64,000 nt of DNA, from NCBI RefSeq assembly GCF_004216895.1, contig NZ_SGXE01000001.1, positions 434,001 through 498,000 of the forward strand, read 5' to 3'. Source of the DNA: Aquimarina brevivitae. Its GTDB lineage: Bacteria > Bacteroidota > Bacteroidia > Flavobacteriales > Flavobacteriaceae. The notes under the pieces are model-generated. The model saw only the letters and a list, made by a program, of their open reading frames with translations. It searched no databases and was not told the DNA's origin. Shown here one piece after another: positions 38,856 through 46,636 of this stretch. The translations under genes were made by a program, and so were the position numbers. How positions within the stretch are numbered: position 1 is the stretch's first letter; the number at the start of each line of letters is the position of its first letter.

Positions 38856-40295
38856 TTATGCAATAGTTTGTATAAGTTCTTGTAAAGCTTCTGTTTCAAT
38901 CCTAGTTGAATCATAGGTAAAGTTTGACAAAGTGCGATAGGATGGATGATATAATTGTTGATACAATTCAGCTCTTGATCGTTGAGAGTCCTCTTGTTGT
39001 AGAAACGATACTGCAGATTCAATAGGTAAATTAGGTCTTGCATAAATCACTTTTGCCCCTAAATCTCTATAAAATTGCAAAAGACGATTTAAAAACGATG
39101 AATTAGTAAAGAAACTATGCTCTGCGCTTAAACAAAGGATTTTATCTGATTGTTCTGTAAGTAAAAAATGATGGAGTTGAAGTTGCATAAATTCAATTTC
39201 TTCAAGATCTAAAACCCCAGTATTCATCCAATTTTGTAGCATTTCCTGAGTTGAAAATTTAGTGCTATTCCTAAAAATCTTTGCCACCTCTTCAGAACCG
39301 TATAATGCTATTTGCTTCTTTTGTATCACCGCAGACTTAGACCAAATTTCCAAACATACTTCTTTACTGTATACAATGTCTTTTTGACCGTGTTTTGCCA
39401 ATGAGGAAGCCAACTGGTATTTCTCAGGGCTATCTGGACCTATAATCACTATGGGGTTATTTTTTTTCTGTTGTATTTCCTTTTTACAAATGTTTAGACA
39501 GCTATTGATCTCATCCAAAGCCCAAGGAATAAAGCTGTTTACAAACGCTTTACCTTGATCCGTAAGTTTTGCATTTTTGGAAATGATTTCAATACCCTTT
39601 TTAAGACGAAGTGCATTGTGAAGCATTAAACTTAATAGCGTGTTTTTTAGATTTGGTTTTTGCTGGTATAAAATGCGATCTAGTTTAAGCACGTGTGTAA
39701 ATGCATAAACGCCATGAAAAAGTGCAGCCATGGGTCTGGGAATATCTAACCGAATCGGACTATCAAAAAGCTCTTCATCACCATTTATAAACAAGGGTAA
39801 CTTAGATTCAAAATGTTGGCCTAAACAAAACAATTTATTATGCGCCATCTCGTGCACCAAGGCCTGAGCTAACAACAAGGGGTTATGTACGGTTGCCCAG
39901 ATTGCTCCCAATGTATTTTTAGGCTGATGACTGTTTGACCCTGCATAATCTTCGGAGTCTACAACCCCCTTAATTAAAACCGGATTAAATGCTGTAATCA
40001 ATGCTCCTATTTGGTGATAGGCTTCTGGCCAAAGCTTCAGTAGTTCTTCTGCCTTTTTTATGCTAGGATGATCGAATGGAGCGTGTTGAAACTCTTCTAA
40101 AAAAGATGCGGGCCAATCAAAATGACGCAATGCCGTGGTTCCAAAAATGGTAGGTTCACCTGCAGTAGCAGCTGCCGTTTTAACAAATGAGGTATCTTGA
40201 CTATAGTGTAAAAATAAATTTGTATCACTACTATCTGGCTGCATTACAGCCATTTTTTCCCAATCTTGTAATCGAATTGCTGTATTAACTTCCAT
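38856..40295 (-). CDS. HExxH peptide beta-hydroxylase-like domain fused to a degenerate shikimate-kinase-like domain
   Basis: This 479-residue protein has the metal-binding HEMAH (residues 148-152) in LLLAQALVHEMAHNKL. The pattern IRLDIPRPMAALFHGVYAFTHVL (about 181-203) follows. Together these match the HExxH domain, described in databases as an alpha-ketoglutarate-type peptide beta-hydroxylase, found beside radical SAM/SPASM enzymes such as the FxsB family. Residues ~280-479 look like a second domain. It starts IVIIGPDSPEKYQLASSLA, a P-loop-like strand-loop without the Gly-Lys-Ser/Thr, and ends RSRAELYQQLYHPSYRTLS, which recalls the shikimate-kinase fold. Its ATG overlaps the upstream 277-residue gene by 11 bases. 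It is the last gene of the operon. Confidence 0.75.
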   Translation of the reverse strand: MEVNTAIRLQDWEKMAVMQPDSSDTNLFLHYSQDTSFVKTAAATAGEPTIFGTTALRHFDWPASFLEEFQHAPFDHPSIKKAEELLKLWPEAYHQIGALITAFNPVLIKGVVDSEDYAGSNSHQPKNTLGAIWATVHNPLLLAQALVHEMAHNKLFCLGQHFESKLPLFINGDEELFDSPIRLDIPRPMAALFHGVYAFTHVLKLDRILYQQKPNLKNTLLSLMLHNALRLKKGIEIISKNAKLTDQGKAFVNSFIPWALDEINSCLNICKKEIQQKKNNPIVIIGPDSPEKYQLASSLAKHGQKDIVYSKEVCLEIWSKSAVIQKKQIALYGSEEVAKIFRNSTKFSTQEMLQNWMNTGVLDLEEIEFMQLQLHHFLLTEQSDKILCLSAEHSFFTNSSFLNRLLQFYRDLGAKVIYARPNLPIESAVSFLQQEDSQRSRAELYQQLYHPSYRTLSNFTYDSTRIETEALQELIQTIA

Positions 40296-41118
40296 GTTGT
40301 AAACCTGCTTTAAATGATTTAGAGTCTGAGACCCTTAGAAATGATTTTTTGCGATACGGGAATCTCTTCCCTGATGCTCCTTCTATCGGATAAGAGGATC
40401 CATCTAGCTGCACAGTATATGCGATGGGTGTAGCATCTGTATCATAAGCCAGCTTAACTACCGGGGTTCTCAGTTCGCAAATCCCATGCATTACAGACCA
40501 TTCCACTGGCCAGCTGTAGATTTCTTGTAACCAATTCAATTCTTCTACAAAACCATAGCTTTCCATATTTTCGAACAAAAGATCAATTTGTTTCCTTTGG
40601 TTTGAACAATCCAGACAACATCGATGCTGTGGACCTACCGTGACGATCAATTTTTGAAAAAAAACACTACTATCACTAGTCTCAGGTAGTTTTATCAGTT
40701 CCTCTTCCTGGACTATCCCATGCGTTGTTAAGGCTGCCTGCCAAATTTGTTCTTTTTGAGAATGTTGCCTAGCTCTACGGGTAGCTACAATACAACAACT
40801 ACTGTTTTCGCTGGTAACACTTAATTGATGGGTCAACCTTATTTCGTAAAATACCGGCCCTGTTTCGGTTTTTTTACCTAAAAAGACAACTTCAAGGTCA
40901 ATTGGTAGTTCCTTAATCCGATCAAGTATTTTAAAATACATAGCGCCTTCTACTATCAGGATAAATGACCTGCACTTACTATCCGTAATCATACGTATTG
41001 TAGTATCGATAATCGCATTATCTACTTTAACAAAGCGAGTAGCCCATACGTTCTCTGCGGCATCACTTACCCAGGCTATCGTTTTAAACCCAGGAATATT
41101 ATACGCTAGCTGTTGCAT
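40285..41118 (-). CDS. Unrecognised 277-residue protein of the radical SAM operon
   Basis: I do not recognise a domain. There is no signal peptide or membrane segment. The N-terminal ~100 residues alternate strands and helices. A Cys cluster, RCCLDC at about residues 166-171 (Cys167, 168, 171), and two further Cys near 108-109 could bind a metal. A basic C-terminal segment, GKRFPYRKKSFLRVSDSKSF, follows. It overlaps radical SAM by 20 bases and the HExxH gene by 11 bases, so it is tightly coupled with both. A role as an accessory, scaffold or substrate-recognition protein is inferred only from position. Confidence 0.65.
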   Translation of the reverse strand: MQQLAYNIPGFKTIAWVSDAAENVWATRFVKVDNAIIDTTIRMITDSKCRSFILIVEGAMYFKILDRIKELPIDLEVVFLGKKTETGPVFYEIRLTHQLSVTSENSSCCIVATRRARQHSQKEQIWQAALTTHGIVQEEELIKLPETSDSSVFFQKLIVTVGPQHRCCLDCSNQRKQIDLLFENMESYGFVEELNWLQEIYSWPVEWSVMHGICELRTPVVKLAYDTDATPIAYTVQLDGSSYPIEGASGKRFPYRKKSFLRVSDSKSFKAGLQHGS

Positions 41119-42298
41119 GAGATTGTTGTTTTTGTTGAAGAGCTACTTTAGTAAGTAGCATTTTTATCGATGGATTTATTCCATTACTCCACCCTTCGAC
41201 AAGTTTAGCCTCTATAAAAGAACGGATAGGATGTGTTGATAAAGGTGTTTTACCCTCGGCTACCATTTGATCTTCCGTGATTTGAAATAGCGATTTCCAA
41301 ACTTTGCAGTGTTCGGTTCTATTACGCCAGTCTCCTACTAAAGAAGTGCCGGGGCAATGCCCTTTGCACATGGCAAAGAAGCGACAGCCTTTACAGCCTC
41401 CATTTTCTTGTGGAGTATTATATAAGGCTAGGTAACGCGCATAAGTGGGTAAGCCTGATTTTACAAAATCGATACCTTCTTTATTGGTCCTACCACAGTT
41501 ACTGCGTTGTCCATTACCTTCAACTCCACGAACAGCAGAGGTGGTATAAGGATCACACCCCGTCCAAACACAACTTACCCCGTGATCATCAGCACTCATT
41601 AAGTTTCTAATCTCTCTAAAAATGTCAAATTTTAGCTGATGAAGTTCATCTTCTAACTGATGAAAAAATAGCAAGGTGTCGATATTTTGTTGCTCACTTA
41701 AATGATATACCGCTCTAATACTTTCGCTTTCTACTTCCATAAGATGTAATCTAGCCGATCGCACTCCCATTCTATCTAATTGCTTGATCCACTCCCCCAT
41801 TTGATGACGCTTTTCTGCAGTACCCACATTACCTCTGTGGAGTGTGATGATAATAGAAGGTTGTAACCCTTCATCGCACAATTTAGTAATGGCATCCTCA
41901 GATTGTTGCGTCATTTTTCGAGTACGCTCTAATGAACCTGCCCATCGTACGTCATTCAGCGCTTTAGGCCCATCAATAGATACACCAACACTAACTTTAT
42001 ATTTCTTAAATAATGCAATATGTGCCTGTGTAATAAGTGATCCATTGGTCTGTATGGAATTTTGTCCAAATTGCTGCAGCCCCCAGGCCCATAATTTCTC
42101 AAGATCTTCTATAGGCACCATGAGCGCTTCTCCACCAAAAAGAGTAAAGTCCTTCCCTTCTTGTAGAATTGCCTTCTTCATTTTTTCTATGTCATAAGGT
42201 TTCTGGGTTGAATCCTCCACATCTCTTTGCGGATGCTGATAACAATACTGACAGGCGATATTACATTTGACCCCTAATGGTCTTACTTCTACTCCCAT
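41099..42298 (-). CDS. Radical SAM/SPASM peptide-modifying enzyme
   Basis: The 399-residue protein carries the SAM-binding [4Fe-4S] motif CNIACQYC (Cys12, 16, 19) at its N-terminus. FTLFGGEALM (near residue 55) and QTNGSLIT follow. The C-terminal half has eight Cys (243, 248, 268, 302, 305, 311, 315, 331) in the order CVWTGCDPY, RSNCGRT, GGCKGCRFF, MCKGHCPG and EHCKVW. This is a SPASM domain that should hold auxiliary Fe-S clusters. Such enzymes introduce crosslinks, epimerise or otherwise alter peptides. It starts 18 bases after the large repeat-tailed gene and overlaps the next gene by 20 bases, pointing to the large protein as substrate. Confidence 0.9.
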   Translation of the reverse strand: MGVEVRPLGVKCNIACQYCYQHPQRDVEDSTQKPYDIEKMKKAILQEGKDFTLFGGEALMVPIEDLEKLWAWGLQQFGQNSIQTNGSLITQAHIALFKKYKVSVGVSIDGPKALNDVRWAGSLERTRKMTQQSEDAITKLCDEGLQPSIIITLHRGNVGTAEKRHQMGEWIKQLDRMGVRSARLHLMEVESESIRAVYHLSEQQNIDTLLFFHQLEDELHQLKFDIFREIRNLMSADDHGVSCVWTGCDPYTTSAVRGVEGNGQRSNCGRTNKEGIDFVKSGLPTYARYLALYNTPQENGGCKGCRFFAMCKGHCPGTSLVGDWRNRTEHCKVWKSLFQITEDQMVAEGKTPLSTHPIRSFIEAKLVEGWSNGINPSIKMLLTKVALQQKQQSHATASV

Positions 42299-42316
42299 GT
42301 GTTCTTAATTTTGAGA

Positions 42317-45010
42317 TTAAATACCTTTATCGACATGGGTTCCGGCATCCTCGTGCTTATCGGCATGGATACCGATATGCAATATATCTCCGTGTATCCC
42401 TACATTAACTCCACCGTGAACCGTAGCATTAAGGTGAGCGTGCAAGCTGATATCTGAATTCAGGACCATATTACTATTCACCCCTACATTGCCACTTACT
42501 CCTAAATCACCACCTACAAATGCTGCATCTAAATGTTCAGAAACGTTTATTGGAGGCGAGGTAGCATCCGCATGCGCTGCTGGTGGCATCATCATATCAA
42601 AATGCTGACTGGGATCAATATCAATAAGCGTTACATTAAAAGCCGGTGTGGATACGCTTTTACTAACATCTAGATCCGCATGCTCGCTAAAATGATGTCC
42701 ACCTACGATAGGTAGATCCGCGTGCTTATCTGCATGCACATTGACCAAATGTCCTAAGTCCGCGTGGAAGCTCTCTGAAGGTATACCAGGAGCAATTTTT
42801 ATAGGAAAATCTACAGTACCATCCACATGATAACTATCTGGTAATTTTGCCAGCGCCTCAAATAGTTGTGGAATTGAGGTTTTATATACGTGGTATAATA
42901 CATTGACCACAAAGGCTCCTCCACTAATGAGTCCTTTACCTAAAACACTAATATAATTGGTCACATCGGCAAAGTAACTTGCAAAGATAGATGTAGCTTC
43001 TGCTACAATTTTTTGTTCGATATGCTGTGCAAGGTTACCTAAGTCTCTAAGATTAGTACCTACATCAAATTTAAACCCAAATTTTTCGCCATTAAAATCA
43101 AAACTGGCATCTACCAAAGCTGACAATGCTCCATTGATAAACGATACCGATAAAGTACCGGTCATAGTATCGTTAATAGTAATAGTTCCTAAATTTATTC
43201 CACCTATTGTTATTGAAGGTTTTGCATTTATTCCTATGGAAAGACTACTATCAAAAGACATCTTGGTACCCCCGTCCTTAAACTTTACATCTATCTTATC
43301 TTCCAAAAATCCAAGATTTGACTGCACGTGAATATCTAAAGCAGTGGGTGATACAGAAGCATCAACCACTTCTTCCATCCCTAAAATTTCAGCATCTACA
43401 CTAACATCAAAGGACTCAACTGTAGTATCAAAATCAAAATAGGCACCTCCTGCTTTTACATCGTGTCCAGCCTGTCCCTTACCTGTTAAGGATATAGAAC
43501 CATCTAATAGATTAATGGGGTCAATGCTCGCCTGCCCTTTTATACCCGTACCTTGGTTAATCATTAATGCCGAATAGGTATGGAATCCCCAAAAATCAAT
43601 AGCCGCGTTATACCCTATACCCACCTGGCATTGTGTGCCATCTGGTAATTGCTGTGCCTTATCACACCAGTAAAACATAAGATCTTCAAAACTGAATTCA
43701 CTTAGTGCCTTTGGCAAGGTTATGCCGCTATCAATTACTGAATTAAAAATTACCGGAAGACTCAGGTTTTTAGTTTCACAATACAGCAATGACGGATTAG
43801 GAAGATCGTCCGTAAATTCCATGGTAATGGCAAACTTTTCATCGAGTTTAGTTTTAGCCTGTCCTAAAAGGAATGCTCCTTCTAAGGTAATACCTGCACC
43901 TGTTTCAACACCAAAAGAGACATCCAATCCAACACCAACGTCTTCTAAGGTGACACCATAAAAGTCAAATGGATATATGATTTCTGTATCGCTATTTAGT
44001 GTGGCTTGTATGGTGCCTGTTCCATCAGAATAGGTAAATGAAATAGCTCCGGTAACCTGAATTTCATTTACATCTGGTTTTGCAGGAATTTTTATTGGTA
44101 ACTCCAAGGTACCTTGTAAACTAATAGACGGTGTCGAGGTTATATCCATTTCGATCCCTGATAATTGAATCTTGGAATAGCCAGGTAAACCAAAAGATTT
44201 TTCGATAGCTGCCTTGACTTCAAAACTAGTTTTCGTCAAGTCGATACTGATTTGTAAAGGAATGTTTTGTAAGCTTTTTGACATTTCATTAGTCAACACT
44301 TGCAGTGGCGTTTTACCTGCATTGGCTTGTAATGCTAATGTGGAAACAAATTCTACTCCGTCGACTACTCCAGTAATTCCAACAATTTTGAGTTTATCAT
44401 CCTTAAAATCTGAAATGACAATAGCAGAATCTGAAAATTGCAGATCATTAAATACAGTTAGTGTACTATCAATTTTTGATAGATTAAAGGCTTGCGAAAC
44501 TCCAATTCCTAAAGCTGCGCCCCATGTACCCGAATTATTTTTTACAAATAGCTCTACTTCTCCCCAACTTGTTTTGGCGTCAAGATCTAAAGAATACTTC
44601 TTATCTGTTGTATTAAAGTTTGTATTAAAGCTTATACTAGTCACAGAAAGCCCAGACAAATTAGCAGGTAAGGTGAAGGTTTTAGTTAAGAAATGCTTTA
44701 CCATCGTATTTACGGTGGATAAATCCTTTGAAGAAGCTCCTAAACTCCACGTAATACTGCCGTCACTTTCTTCAGTAAATCCCCAACTCGCGGTGAGGTG
44801 AACGCCGAATAAAATAAAATTACCAGTCAACGTTACTTTAGATCCCGAACAAGCAACCGTAGCATTGCTAAAGGTTAGTTTATCCGTTTTTAATACGTTT
44901 TTGATAAAGTCATCTACGGTTACAGCTGTAACTAAGCTATTAGGAAAAGTAATGGCACCTTTACCGGTGGCATTTTTTAATTCCGAGCACAAGGTTGCTA
45001 TATTGCTCAT
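42317..45010 (-). CDS. Large protein with a C-terminal His-x-Asp repeat tail; candidate substrate
   Basis: The 897-residue protein has no signal peptide or membrane segment and starts MSNIATLCSELKN. Residues ~1-725 are beta-rich and repetitive in style, with patterns like amphipathic strands followed by Gly, Asp and Thr turns, without a domain I can name. Residues 726-897 carry about twelve His-x-Asp motifs: HVD, HAD (six), HFD, HLD, HGD, HED and HVD near the end. The rest of the protein has almost none. The last residues are HADKHEDAGTHVDKGI. It is the first gene of the operon with the radical SAM and HExxH enzymes. I infer it carries the modified tail; that is not proven. Confidence 0.8.
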   Translation of the reverse strand: MSNIATLCSELKNATGKGAITFPNSLVTAVTVDDFIKNVLKTDKLTFSNATVACSGSKVTLTGNFILFGVHLTASWGFTEESDGSITWSLGASSKDLSTVNTMVKHFLTKTFTLPANLSGLSVTSISFNTNFNTTDKKYSLDLDAKTSWGEVELFVKNNSGTWGAALGIGVSQAFNLSKIDSTLTVFNDLQFSDSAIVISDFKDDKLKIVGITGVVDGVEFVSTLALQANAGKTPLQVLTNEMSKSLQNIPLQISIDLTKTSFEVKAAIEKSFGLPGYSKIQLSGIEMDITSTPSISLQGTLELPIKIPAKPDVNEIQVTGAISFTYSDGTGTIQATLNSDTEIIYPFDFYGVTLEDVGVGLDVSFGVETGAGITLEGAFLLGQAKTKLDEKFAITMEFTDDLPNPSLLYCETKNLSLPVIFNSVIDSGITLPKALSEFSFEDLMFYWCDKAQQLPDGTQCQVGIGYNAAIDFWGFHTYSALMINQGTGIKGQASIDPINLLDGSISLTGKGQAGHDVKAGGAYFDFDTTVESFDVSVDAEILGMEEVVDASVSPTALDIHVQSNLGFLEDKIDVKFKDGGTKMSFDSSLSIGINAKPSITIGGINLGTITINDTMTGTLSVSFINGALSALVDASFDFNGEKFGFKFDVGTNLRDLGNLAQHIEQKIVAEATSIFASYFADVTNYISVLGKGLISGGAFVVNVLYHVYKTSIPQLFEALAKLPDSYHVDGTVDFPIKIAPGIPSESFHADLGHLVNVHADKHADLPIVGGHHFSEHADLDVSKSVSTPAFNVTLIDIDPSQHFDMMMPPAAHADATSPPINVSEHLDAAFVGGDLGVSGNVGVNSNMVLNSDISLHAHLNATVHGGVNVGIHGDILHIGIHADKHEDAGTHVDKGI

Positions 45011-45205: not shown

Positions 45206-45829
45206 TTATCTTTCAAAGCCTTTTTCTACCGCCAGTATTGCGTTAAAGGTTCCATTTTCTTCATTGGCAATAACAGGATATCTACCTGGCTGTACCACAT
45301 TGCCGTGTAACCCCAATTCTCTAGACGTTTCTGCATCCAGTATCATCGCTTCTTCTAGCACTAGAGTATTCCCTTTAAAAAAGCCTTCTTGCTGATAGAA
45401 CTGTAATCCTGCGACGGCTTCGTTCAATGCAAAAGGAACCGCCTGTTCTTCTGGATTAATTTTTAACTCTAACTTATCTCTAAATGATAGAAATTCTCTT
45501 GGATTGATTTTTTCATAAATAATCCAGGGATCCAAAATATCTATCCAACAAGGAATTATATAACAAGGATCAAAGATGATATCTGGTATGCAGATTCGAT
45601 AAATCTGACAGATACTCGGAAAACCAGAATAACATCTTCCACTTATTTTTAATCCTCTCTTTACATAATAATAACATATTCCGCCATGAATTTTGGCTAA
45701 TGTACTTTCAAGATCAACGATCTCTTCATCTATAGATTGTACTTGTTGTTGTTCATCGATTGTTTCTTTATCACAAGCGCTTAACAGGCATAGCGTTACT
45801 AACGCTACTATTAAAAATGAATTTTTCAT
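45206..45829 (-). CDS. Cys-rich lipoprotein, paralogue of the gene upstream
   Basis: The 207-residue protein begins with a lipoprotein signal and Cys19 in LLSACDKE. The middle is rich in Cys, Ile, Tyr and Pro (ICYYYVKRGLK, RICIPDII, CYIIPCWIDILDPW). The C-terminal half shares the pattern DPW-SF-D-NP-EQ-VP with the gene at 45929-46636. The two are clearly homologous. No known domain. A terminator follows it, and a strong terminator lies before it, so it has its own transcript unless read through. Confidence 0.7.
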   Translation of the reverse strand: MKNSFLIVALVTLCLLSACDKETIDEQQQVQSIDEEIVDLESTLAKIHGGICYYYVKRGLKISGRCYSGFPSICQIYRICIPDIIFDPCYIIPCWIDILDPWIIYEKINPREFLSFRDKLELKINPEEQAVPFALNEAVAGLQFYQQEGFFKGNTLVLEEAMILDAETSRELGLHGNVVQPGRYPVIANEENGTFNAILAVEKGFER

Positions 45830-45928: not shown

Positions 45929-46636
45929 TTATCCTTTACTTAGTCTGATTATAATGTTAAAAGTACCTTCTTTTTTATTATAAATCACGGGGTATTTACC
46001 TGATTTTATGAGGTTTAAACCTGTATTTAGCATTTTTGACATCTCCGGATCTAGTTTAATGTTATTTTTTAACTTAAAATAAATATTGGGTTGCGGGTTT
46101 GGTTCTCCACTGACGTAATCAAGATTATATGAAACTGCCATATCTTTAATTGCAGGATGCTCCTTGTACGTCTGCAATACAAGTAGATTTTCAGTTAATC
46201 GAATAGGTACCATTTGTTCTTTAGGATTAAGATCTATTGGATACCTGTCTTTAAATGAGACCAGGTATTCTGGTTTTAAGAACTTCAATACTTCCCAGGG
46301 ATCTTGAATGTTCCAATCACAAGGTATGATCTTACACGGATTTACTAAGATTAATGGAGGCTCTATTTGTATAAATGGATTGGGTAGACAATCCATAATT
46401 ACACAATTATTCAGCGGATCGTATTGACAAGTTGCCCTTCCGGATACCGGGTGGGTAACTTTCTTGGCATATAACTGTAAGGTAAATCTGCAGAATTCTC
46501 CAGAGGGTCCTTTAGCTTCTATTTGCTGTTCTACAGCAGTTTGGTTTTCTTCAACTTCTATTATAGACTCTTCTGTACAAGAATAACATAAAAGTATTAG
46601 CAAAGTGATACAAGTGATTGATTGTGTTGTTTTCAT
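45929..46636 (-). CDS. Cys-rich lipoprotein, paralogue of the gene downstream
   Basis: The 235-residue protein has a lipoprotein signal with Cys20 in LCYSCTEES. A central segment with spaced Cys follows (CRFTLQLYAKK, ATCQYDP, NCVIMDCLPNP, NPCKIIPCDWNIQDPW). The C-terminal half, with SFKDR, LNPKEQMVP and GKYPVIYNKKEGTFN, matches the gene at 45206-45829. The Cys likely form disulfides outside the cytoplasm. No domain is recognised. Its location before the radical SAM operon is suggestive but is not proof of a shared function. Confidence 0.7.
   Translation of the reverse strand: MKTTQSITCITLLILLCYSCTEESIIEVEENQTAVEQQIEAKGPSGEFCRFTLQLYAKKVTHPVSGRATCQYDPLNNCVIMDCLPNPFIQIEPPLILVNPCKIIPCDWNIQDPWEVLKFLKPEYLVSFKDRYPIDLNPKEQMVPIRLTENLLVLQTYKEHPAIKDMAVSYNLDYVSGEPNPQPNIYFKLKNNIKLDPEMSKMLNTGLNLIKSGKYPVIYNKKEGTFNIIIRLSKG

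Follow-up and report, generated by a model that had tools for sequence, protein, structure and literature searches.

A radical SAM cassette predicted to crosslink His-x-Asp arrays on giant bacterial and phage proteins

Known radical S-adenosylmethionine (rSAM) cyclophane chemistry yields small peptides. In the His-Xaa-Ser (HxsA/B/C/D) system, an rSAM gene adjoins one for a protein that repeats a three-residue unit containing His. Published three-residue cyclophanes join Tyr-Asp, Trp-Asn/Asp, Phe-Asn, His-Ala and His-Arg, and the portions of that triceptide literature consulted describe no His-x-Asp crosslink (PMC11002830). The hydroxylase ChlH is fused to the cyclophane-forming rSAM enzyme ChlB, and HExxH enzymes are described that hydroxylate Asp and His only where a cyclophane has already been installed (PMC12636437). 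Here we describe a four-gene cassette in a 64,000-nucleotide stretch of Aquimarina brevivitae DNA (contig NZ_SGXE01000001.1, positions 434,001 to 498,000; hereafter the window), in which a giant protein with a tail of His-x-Asp (HxD) motifs is encoded beside an rSAM enzyme, a partner protein and an HExxH protein. We found that this type of rSAM gene is associated with HxD arrays in bacteria and phages, and predict that the rSAM enzyme and the partner probably crosslink the array as three-residue cyclophanes, which the HExxH enzyme would then beta-hydroxylate.

With the triceptide enzymes (XncB, OscB, YxdB, HaaB, YhhB), the cassette shares a SPASM-type rSAM enzyme, an aromatic-x-X3 motif and, in some relatives, small precursors. 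It differs from them in reaching no cut-off of a named maturase, in motif arrays such as the 54 of the phage protein Cumys gp13, in its constant partner and in its giant or phage carriers. Both enzyme types of ChlB/ChlH are also found here, including an rSAM-HExxH fusion in Nannocystis with the partner in between, whereas the rSAM enzyme is distant (PDB entry 9gm3, the ChlB rSAM domain, E 6.5e-13) and the substrate is of another size. To our knowledge, ChlB has no DUF483-like partner. In contrast to the His-Xaa-Ser system, the repeat here is HxD. HxsB and HxsC, which are mentioned in PMC9062424, were not among the best 25 of the 60 NCBIfam families matched by the window's rSAM enzyme. The H(Y)NR clusters (Cluster 41) likewise combine an rSAM enzyme and an Fe/alpha-ketoglutarate (aKG) oxidase with repeated aromatic-x-X3 triplets containing His or Tyr, but theirs have Arg at the third place, a peptide precursor and a peptidase (PMC9062424); we infer that they are of the YhhB type. 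Also close in gene content is the 'rSAM module' of the Thermus phages Cumys and phiMa, with the same three genes (rSAM, DUF483 protein and an uncharacterised protein), which a 2024 paper described as spread in phages and prophages and suggested to modify DNA (PMC11437467). The words 'HxD' and 'histidine' are absent from the main text of that paper, and we recognised no description of an HxD array as a substrate in the titles, abstract starts and passages searched, a scope that leaves out most subscription papers.

The four genes lie tightly packed on the minus strand in the order giant, rSAM, partner and HExxH fusion, as read from the open reading frame (ORF) listing. An 18-base gap separates the giant and rSAM genes and is followed by overlaps of 20 and 11 bases, so the coordinates agree with the packing described in an earlier note on this DNA.
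42317-45010, minus strand: giant carrier, whole ORF, first gene, 897 residues
42830..45010, minus strand: body of the giant, residues 1-727, from the ORF and the AlphaFold model
42320..42829, minus strand: HxD tail of the giant, residues 728-897, predicted substrate region with 12 HxD motifs
41099-42298, minus strand: radical SAM/SPASM enzyme, 399 residues, predicted three-residue cyclophane synthase (PF04055, cysteine spacing)
40285-41118, minus strand: partner, distantly DUF483-like, 277 residues, with homologues in loci of the rSAM family
38856-40295, minus strand: HExxH fusion protein, fourth gene, 479 residues
39537..40043, minus strand: aKG-HExxH beta-hydroxylase domain, residues 85-253 of the fourth protein (TIGR04267, ChlH match)
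38859..39458, minus strand: C-terminal domain of the fourth protein, probably shikimate-kinase-like with a degenerate P-loop, judged from the homologue in locus L018

The repeated three-residue motif that the earlier note had seen in the tail of the large protein was confirmed, all 12 HxD lying from residue 728 on. These 12 fall in the last 172 residues, where 1.98 are expected, and none of 100,000 composition shuffles reached 12. At a threshold of at least three HxD per 150 residues, the tail was the sole such stretch in the window. Among 17 tail-bearing sequences (window included) aligned from residue 735, the motif His and Asp averaged 87% identity to the window, compared to 50% at other tail positions and 45% at the middle motif residue; the HED motif at residue 886 was nearly private to the window (12%). 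In the protein database, 16 of 18 giant homologues, the window's own excluded, contained 8 to 15 HxD after residue 700. The AlphaFold model of the giant (mean predicted local distance difference test score, pLDDT, 81.4) has a body that is beta-rich to about residue 650 and helical over residues 657-720, with pLDDT below 50 in the tail at residues 759-779, 828-831 and 869-887. No Pfam or NCBIfam family matched the giant at E<=1 and no PDB entry matched its fold at E<=0.001. The aromatic-x-X3 motif of triceptide precursors is present in the window tail and in the arrays of relatives, whereas in place of a small precursor with a leader peptide the window's substrate candidate is an 897-residue protein.

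The rSAM enzyme matched Pfam PF04055 at E 1.6e-10, and the Pfam SPASM domain was not reported at E<=1. The cysteine spacing was invariant in 18 aligned sequences, both in C12-x3-C16-x2-C19 and C248-x14-G-x4-C268 and in C302-x2-C305-x5-C311-x3-C315-x15-C331. The enzyme thus combines the CxxxCxxC and SPASM spacing of a radical SAM/SPASM peptide maturase, in line with the radical SAM/SPASM enzyme named in the earlier note. In the PDB, it matched sulfatase maturases in addition to the ChlB domain. Among the best 25 of the 60 NCBIfam models matched, a sulfatase maturase was followed by AmcB, DynA and YhhB, all below their cut-offs, and the ranthipeptide maturase PapB scored 45 bits. The three members of the rSAM family tested all reached no NCBIfam cut-off among the models listed. 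Nine of the 120 rSAM homologues listed (2227 found), including P0113, P0061, P0085 and P0115, themselves end in HxD-type repeats, as if the enzyme were its own substrate. C-terminal HxD (often HGD) arrays borne by the rSAM protein were also seen in loci L024, L027, L029, L031 and L042.

One scan of genome contigs, with an alignment of the rSAM enzyme as query, gave 77 bacterial loci from many phyla. An array was defined as an ORF with at least five HxD in 150 residues, and was counted as near if within 4 kb of the rSAM gene. By this measure, 45 loci had an HxD array near the rSAM gene and 2 had one farther out. In the same test, the control motifs HxE and HxS were near in no locus, HxN in 2, HxK in 3 and the mirror motif DxH in 8; HxS arrays were absent farther out as well. 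HxR (20 near, 26 far) and RxD (21 near, 20 far) were equally common in both stretches, inflated by GC-rich frames. The array genes were on the rSAM strand in 44 of the 45 cases, 21 lay within 60 bases of the rSAM gene, and 20 encoded at least 800 residues. Three Nannocystis loci encode rSAM, partner and HExxH as a single protein with the partner central. In a simple text search, 13 of the 45 array proteins showed a twin-arginine-like pattern ahead of the array or close to it, which would suit export following cytoplasmic modification. The earlier note proposed a co-occurrence search across Bacteroidota; the rSAM family also spans many other phyla. The note's suggestion that the HxD tail is the likely substrate of the adjacent enzymes is strongly supported by the comparative data.

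The 32 array-less loci were inspected afterwards and sorted by eye, and 28 of them still had a substrate candidate. In 20, this was a small protein of 59-107 residues whose C-terminus is HxD, followed by at most three further residues (VHIDI or IHIDL, for instance). Two loci encoded a 94-residue protein with three HxD, three had Nannocystis carriers with four HxD, and three had HxK-tailed carriers (L059, L066 and L067, the first cut by the contig end). In an rSAM tree of 77 rows, with bootstrap not fully settled, the HxK type formed one well supported clade, while the small type required two changes and the giants five. Loci L032, L062, L064 and L089 have an extra rSAM-like gene next to a small precursor ending in HID[LIF]. 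Of these extra genes, those of L032 and L064 were tested, and both are YydG-epimerase-like (about 100 bits, where the cut-off is 300). L064 also contains a DUF364 heavy-metal-chelation gene.

The relatives of the giant offered a contrast between body and tail. Matches to the giant were found in 8 of 188 relative genomes. The window's genome and G025 encode a full-length giant with its array plus the rSAM enzyme. The six others, five of them of the same genus, have body relatives with about 30% identity over part of the protein; in these genomes rSAM and partner were not found. Their proteins contain only 2 or 3 HxD in all, with no array, and end in SHWDHW, SHWDHWS, THWDHW or THWDSW. Because the six enzyme-less carriers have no array, it is the tail and not the body that goes with the enzymes. 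The earlier note had taken homologues regularly lacking the enzymes as a sign against its proposal; body relatives do lack them in six of eight genomes, but these are the ones without an array. A third genome with the rSAM enzyme, G005, encodes it fused to the partner and has no giant match, and by eye its locus shares an rSAM-like neighbor with the small-precursor locus L062. After the enzyme-less carriers comes a conserved gene product of about 260 residues (L013 2512-3300, L010 2487-3272, L011 2545-3360, L012 2389-3189 and L004 322-1083; copies 35-37% identical to that of L013). Neither Pfam nor NCBIfam gave a significant match for the L013 copy, and an alignment of five copies matched nothing in the PDB; the protein is perhaps another tail-modifying enzyme.

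We expanded the search to viral sequences. An IMG/VR scan identified 27 predicted viral contigs, some of them near-copies, with an rSAM enzyme of 34 to 50% identity. An HxD array lay within 4 kb upstream in 26 of these, within 40 bases of the rSAM match in 20, and farther out in none; the remaining contig starts inside the rSAM gene. The partner was present in 24. In L112, a neighbor upstream of the array gene has PHROG matches to tail fibre and spike families. A search of 50,697 phage records gave three rSAM matches at E<=1e-20, 51.0 to 52.5% identical to the window's enzyme, from the phages Cumys, phiMa and phiLo, all cultured on Thermus thermophilus HB8. Cumys gp13 (343 residues) has 54 HxD and phiMa_29 has 53. 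On one side of the gp13 gene, beyond a single small gene, is a gene annotated as tail collar fibre, and on the other side are the genes for rSAM and DUF483 proteins; this neighborhood points to tail structures. In phiLo, two open frames with 101 and 72 HxD, phiLo_136 and phiLo_137, are located at 14807-18601 of L134 on the strand opposite the rSAM gene.

The motifs themselves follow a grammar. In the 27 viral arrays, HxD occurred 911 times against 184 expected, and 50 of the 70 other His counted were in HxN; FxN occurred 27 times against 4.7 expected, and FxD also 27 times. In 46 bacterial arrays, there were 746 HxD against 131 expected and 34 YxD against 14.4 expected. Between Cumys gp13 and phiMa_29 there are 15 nonsynonymous changes; only 2 of these affect any of the 114 motif positions, and neither departs from the grammar (HYD to YYD, WTN to WTD). 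The substitutes in the arrays keep an aromatic-x-Asp/Asn order, matching the aromatic-x-X3 pattern, with its i,i+2 spacing, that is seen in triceptides.

The partner is a constant companion of the rSAM enzyme and appears distantly DUF483-like. A homologue was present in 76 of the 77 bacterial loci, fused to rSAM in 22, and in the 77th (L034) the contig stops 69 bases past the rSAM match. Of 52 partner homologues, 13 matched DUF483 (PF04467) at E<=0.01, the lowest E being 5.8e-7; the window partner was not one of these. The window partner had no Pfam match at E<=1 and in NCBIfam, at the same threshold, only vanXY (16.8 bits against a cut-off of 250). Its AlphaFold model (pLDDT 95.5) had no clear fold match in the PDB. 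Some partners carry C-terminal extras, methyltransferase-like in L023 and L065 (below the Pfam cut-off) and DUF364 in L022 (above it).

The fourth protein is of the peptide beta-hydroxylase type that the earlier note had read from its HExxH motif, matching TIGR04267 (aKG-HExxH) at E 4.9e-23 and 82 bits against a cut-off of 40. The motif is HEMAH at residues 148-152, with H148, E149 and H152 invariant in 16 sequences, and ChlH (8s5f) is a weak match (E 1.7e-4). The aligned homologue in L018 (Mucilaginibacter) has a C-terminal domain with an intact P-loop and a Pfam SKI match at 9.2e-6, above the cut-off; in the window copy the P-loop is lost and no Pfam family matched. The HExxH gene was present in 33 of the 77 bacterial and 3 of the 27 viral loci.

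In the mechanism we propose, the body of the giant or phage protein would serve as a recognition carrier for the enzyme and its partner, and the partner may bind the substrate or the enzyme, both by what is known of such families. The rSAM enzyme would abstract a hydrogen from the third motif residue, as known three-residue cyclophane enzymes do. The resulting carbon radical would add to the aromatic ring, so that within each motif the His ring would be joined to the Asp beta-carbon. The HExxH enzyme could then, optionally, beta-hydroxylate the array after ring formation. The product would be a stiffened, possibly metal-binding tail that remains on the protein.

Several observations weigh against this prediction. 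The cyclophane product is predicted, not observed, and some other modification of His or Asp would explain the association with HxD equally well. The best-scoring NCBIfam model of the rSAM enzyme is a sulfatase maturase (79 bits against a cut-off of 349), and sulfatase maturase forms no crosslink. Among the best 25 of the 60 models, the cyclophane maturases also stayed below their cut-offs (AmcB 70.6 of 425, YhhB 60 of 445, XyeB 41.5 of 450 and GrrM/OscB 48.9 of 310 bits), as did FxsB at 35.3 of 370 bits; the FxsB-type comparison in the earlier note is corrected accordingly, the likeness of the HExxH protein to ChlH notwithstanding. When whole ORFs were tested more strictly (Poisson p<1e-6), 28 of the 77 loci had an array near and 1 had one far, and four loci had no substrate candidate. 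The loci are not independent (10 are from Bradyrhizobium and several phage contigs are near-identical), and the near and far stretches are unequal in length. Two of the 19 giant sequences lack the tail motif (P0138 and P0139, with 0 and 1 HxD). In the viral arrays, only 20 of 119 Tyr are in YxD, and FxN and FxD together cover 54 of 109 Phe. The phiLo array frames are about 4.4 kb from the rSAM gene, with none directly beside it. Hydroxylation would have to be optional, given the HExxH gene in just a minority of loci.

The enzyme and partner could act on HxD by other chemistry, such as a desaturation, an epimerisation of the backbone or bonding to a different atom. The similarly low NCBIfam scores for sulfatase (79), cyclophane (AmcB, 71) and ranthipeptide (PapB, 45 bits) models would allow this, as would the methyltransferase-like domains on partners in L023 and L065. 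We nevertheless consider it unlikely, since known three-residue cyclophanes follow the same i,i+2 aromatic-x-Asp/Asn/Lys grammar (PMC11002830) and the two small-precursor loci L032 and L064 have a separate YydG-epimerase-like rSAM enzyme. It is also improbable, in our judgement, that the arrays are metal-binding tails which the enzymes tune, by beta-hydroxylation of Asp or His or by epimerisation, with no ring formed. In its favor, metals are naturally bound by His and Asp, some relatives (L022, L064) have a DUF364 domain or gene ('putative heavy-metal chelation'), and the HExxH family hydroxylates both residues (PMC12636437). However, HExxH is absent from 24 of the 27 viral and 44 of the 77 bacterial loci, while rSAM is in all loci by selection and the partner in 24 and 76 of them, respectively. 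Moreover, where His gives way to Tyr or Phe (in one phage pair to Trp) and Asp to Asn or Lys, the aromatic-x-X3 register is kept, which fits ring formation better than metal binding. DNA modification by the rSAM/DUF483 module, suggested for the Thermus phages from cyanobacterial loci beside deazapurine genes (PMC11437467), seems highly improbable to us given the HxD array gene within 4 kb upstream in 26 of the 27 viral loci, the HxD tails of some rSAM enzymes themselves, and the small precursor-like proteins and peptide hydroxylase linked to the family. A cyclophane synthase family acting on motif arrays, giant-protein tails included, is the best reading of these sequences.

Upstream of the cassette, at 45206-45829 and 45929-46636 of the window, we noted by eye two putative Cys-containing lipoproteins; of 56 genomes searched, 18 had relatives of the first. 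The same pair sits between the cassette and trpS in Aquimarina MMG016 (L014), and the cassette therefore appears to have moved relative to the pair.

The cyclophane motif grammar occurs here in arrays on giant cellular proteins and, in Cumys, on a protein from the tail-gene region. We hold it about evenly balanced whether bacteria and phages share an unrecognised form of whole-protein hardening, in which an rSAM enzyme and a DUF483-family partner would turn arrays, the longest with dozens of aromatic-x-Asp/Asn motifs, into serial strained cyclophanes, that is, carbon-carbon-stitched rods, on phage tail proteins and on cellular proteins of 900 to 2,700 residues, with small ribosomally synthesized and post-translationally modified peptides as a derived or ancestral branch. 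The HxD-array reading is an alternative to the published DNA-modification guess and, if true, would provide a substrate and a role for this rSAM family and a function for its DUF483-like partner. Such stitching would likely stiffen or functionalise whole proteins, not make a small peptide. If the arrays are crosslinked, this would be a protein-stiffening post-translational modification, for which the cultured Thermus phages Cumys, phiMa and phiLo, with at least 53 motifs, would be easy test objects.

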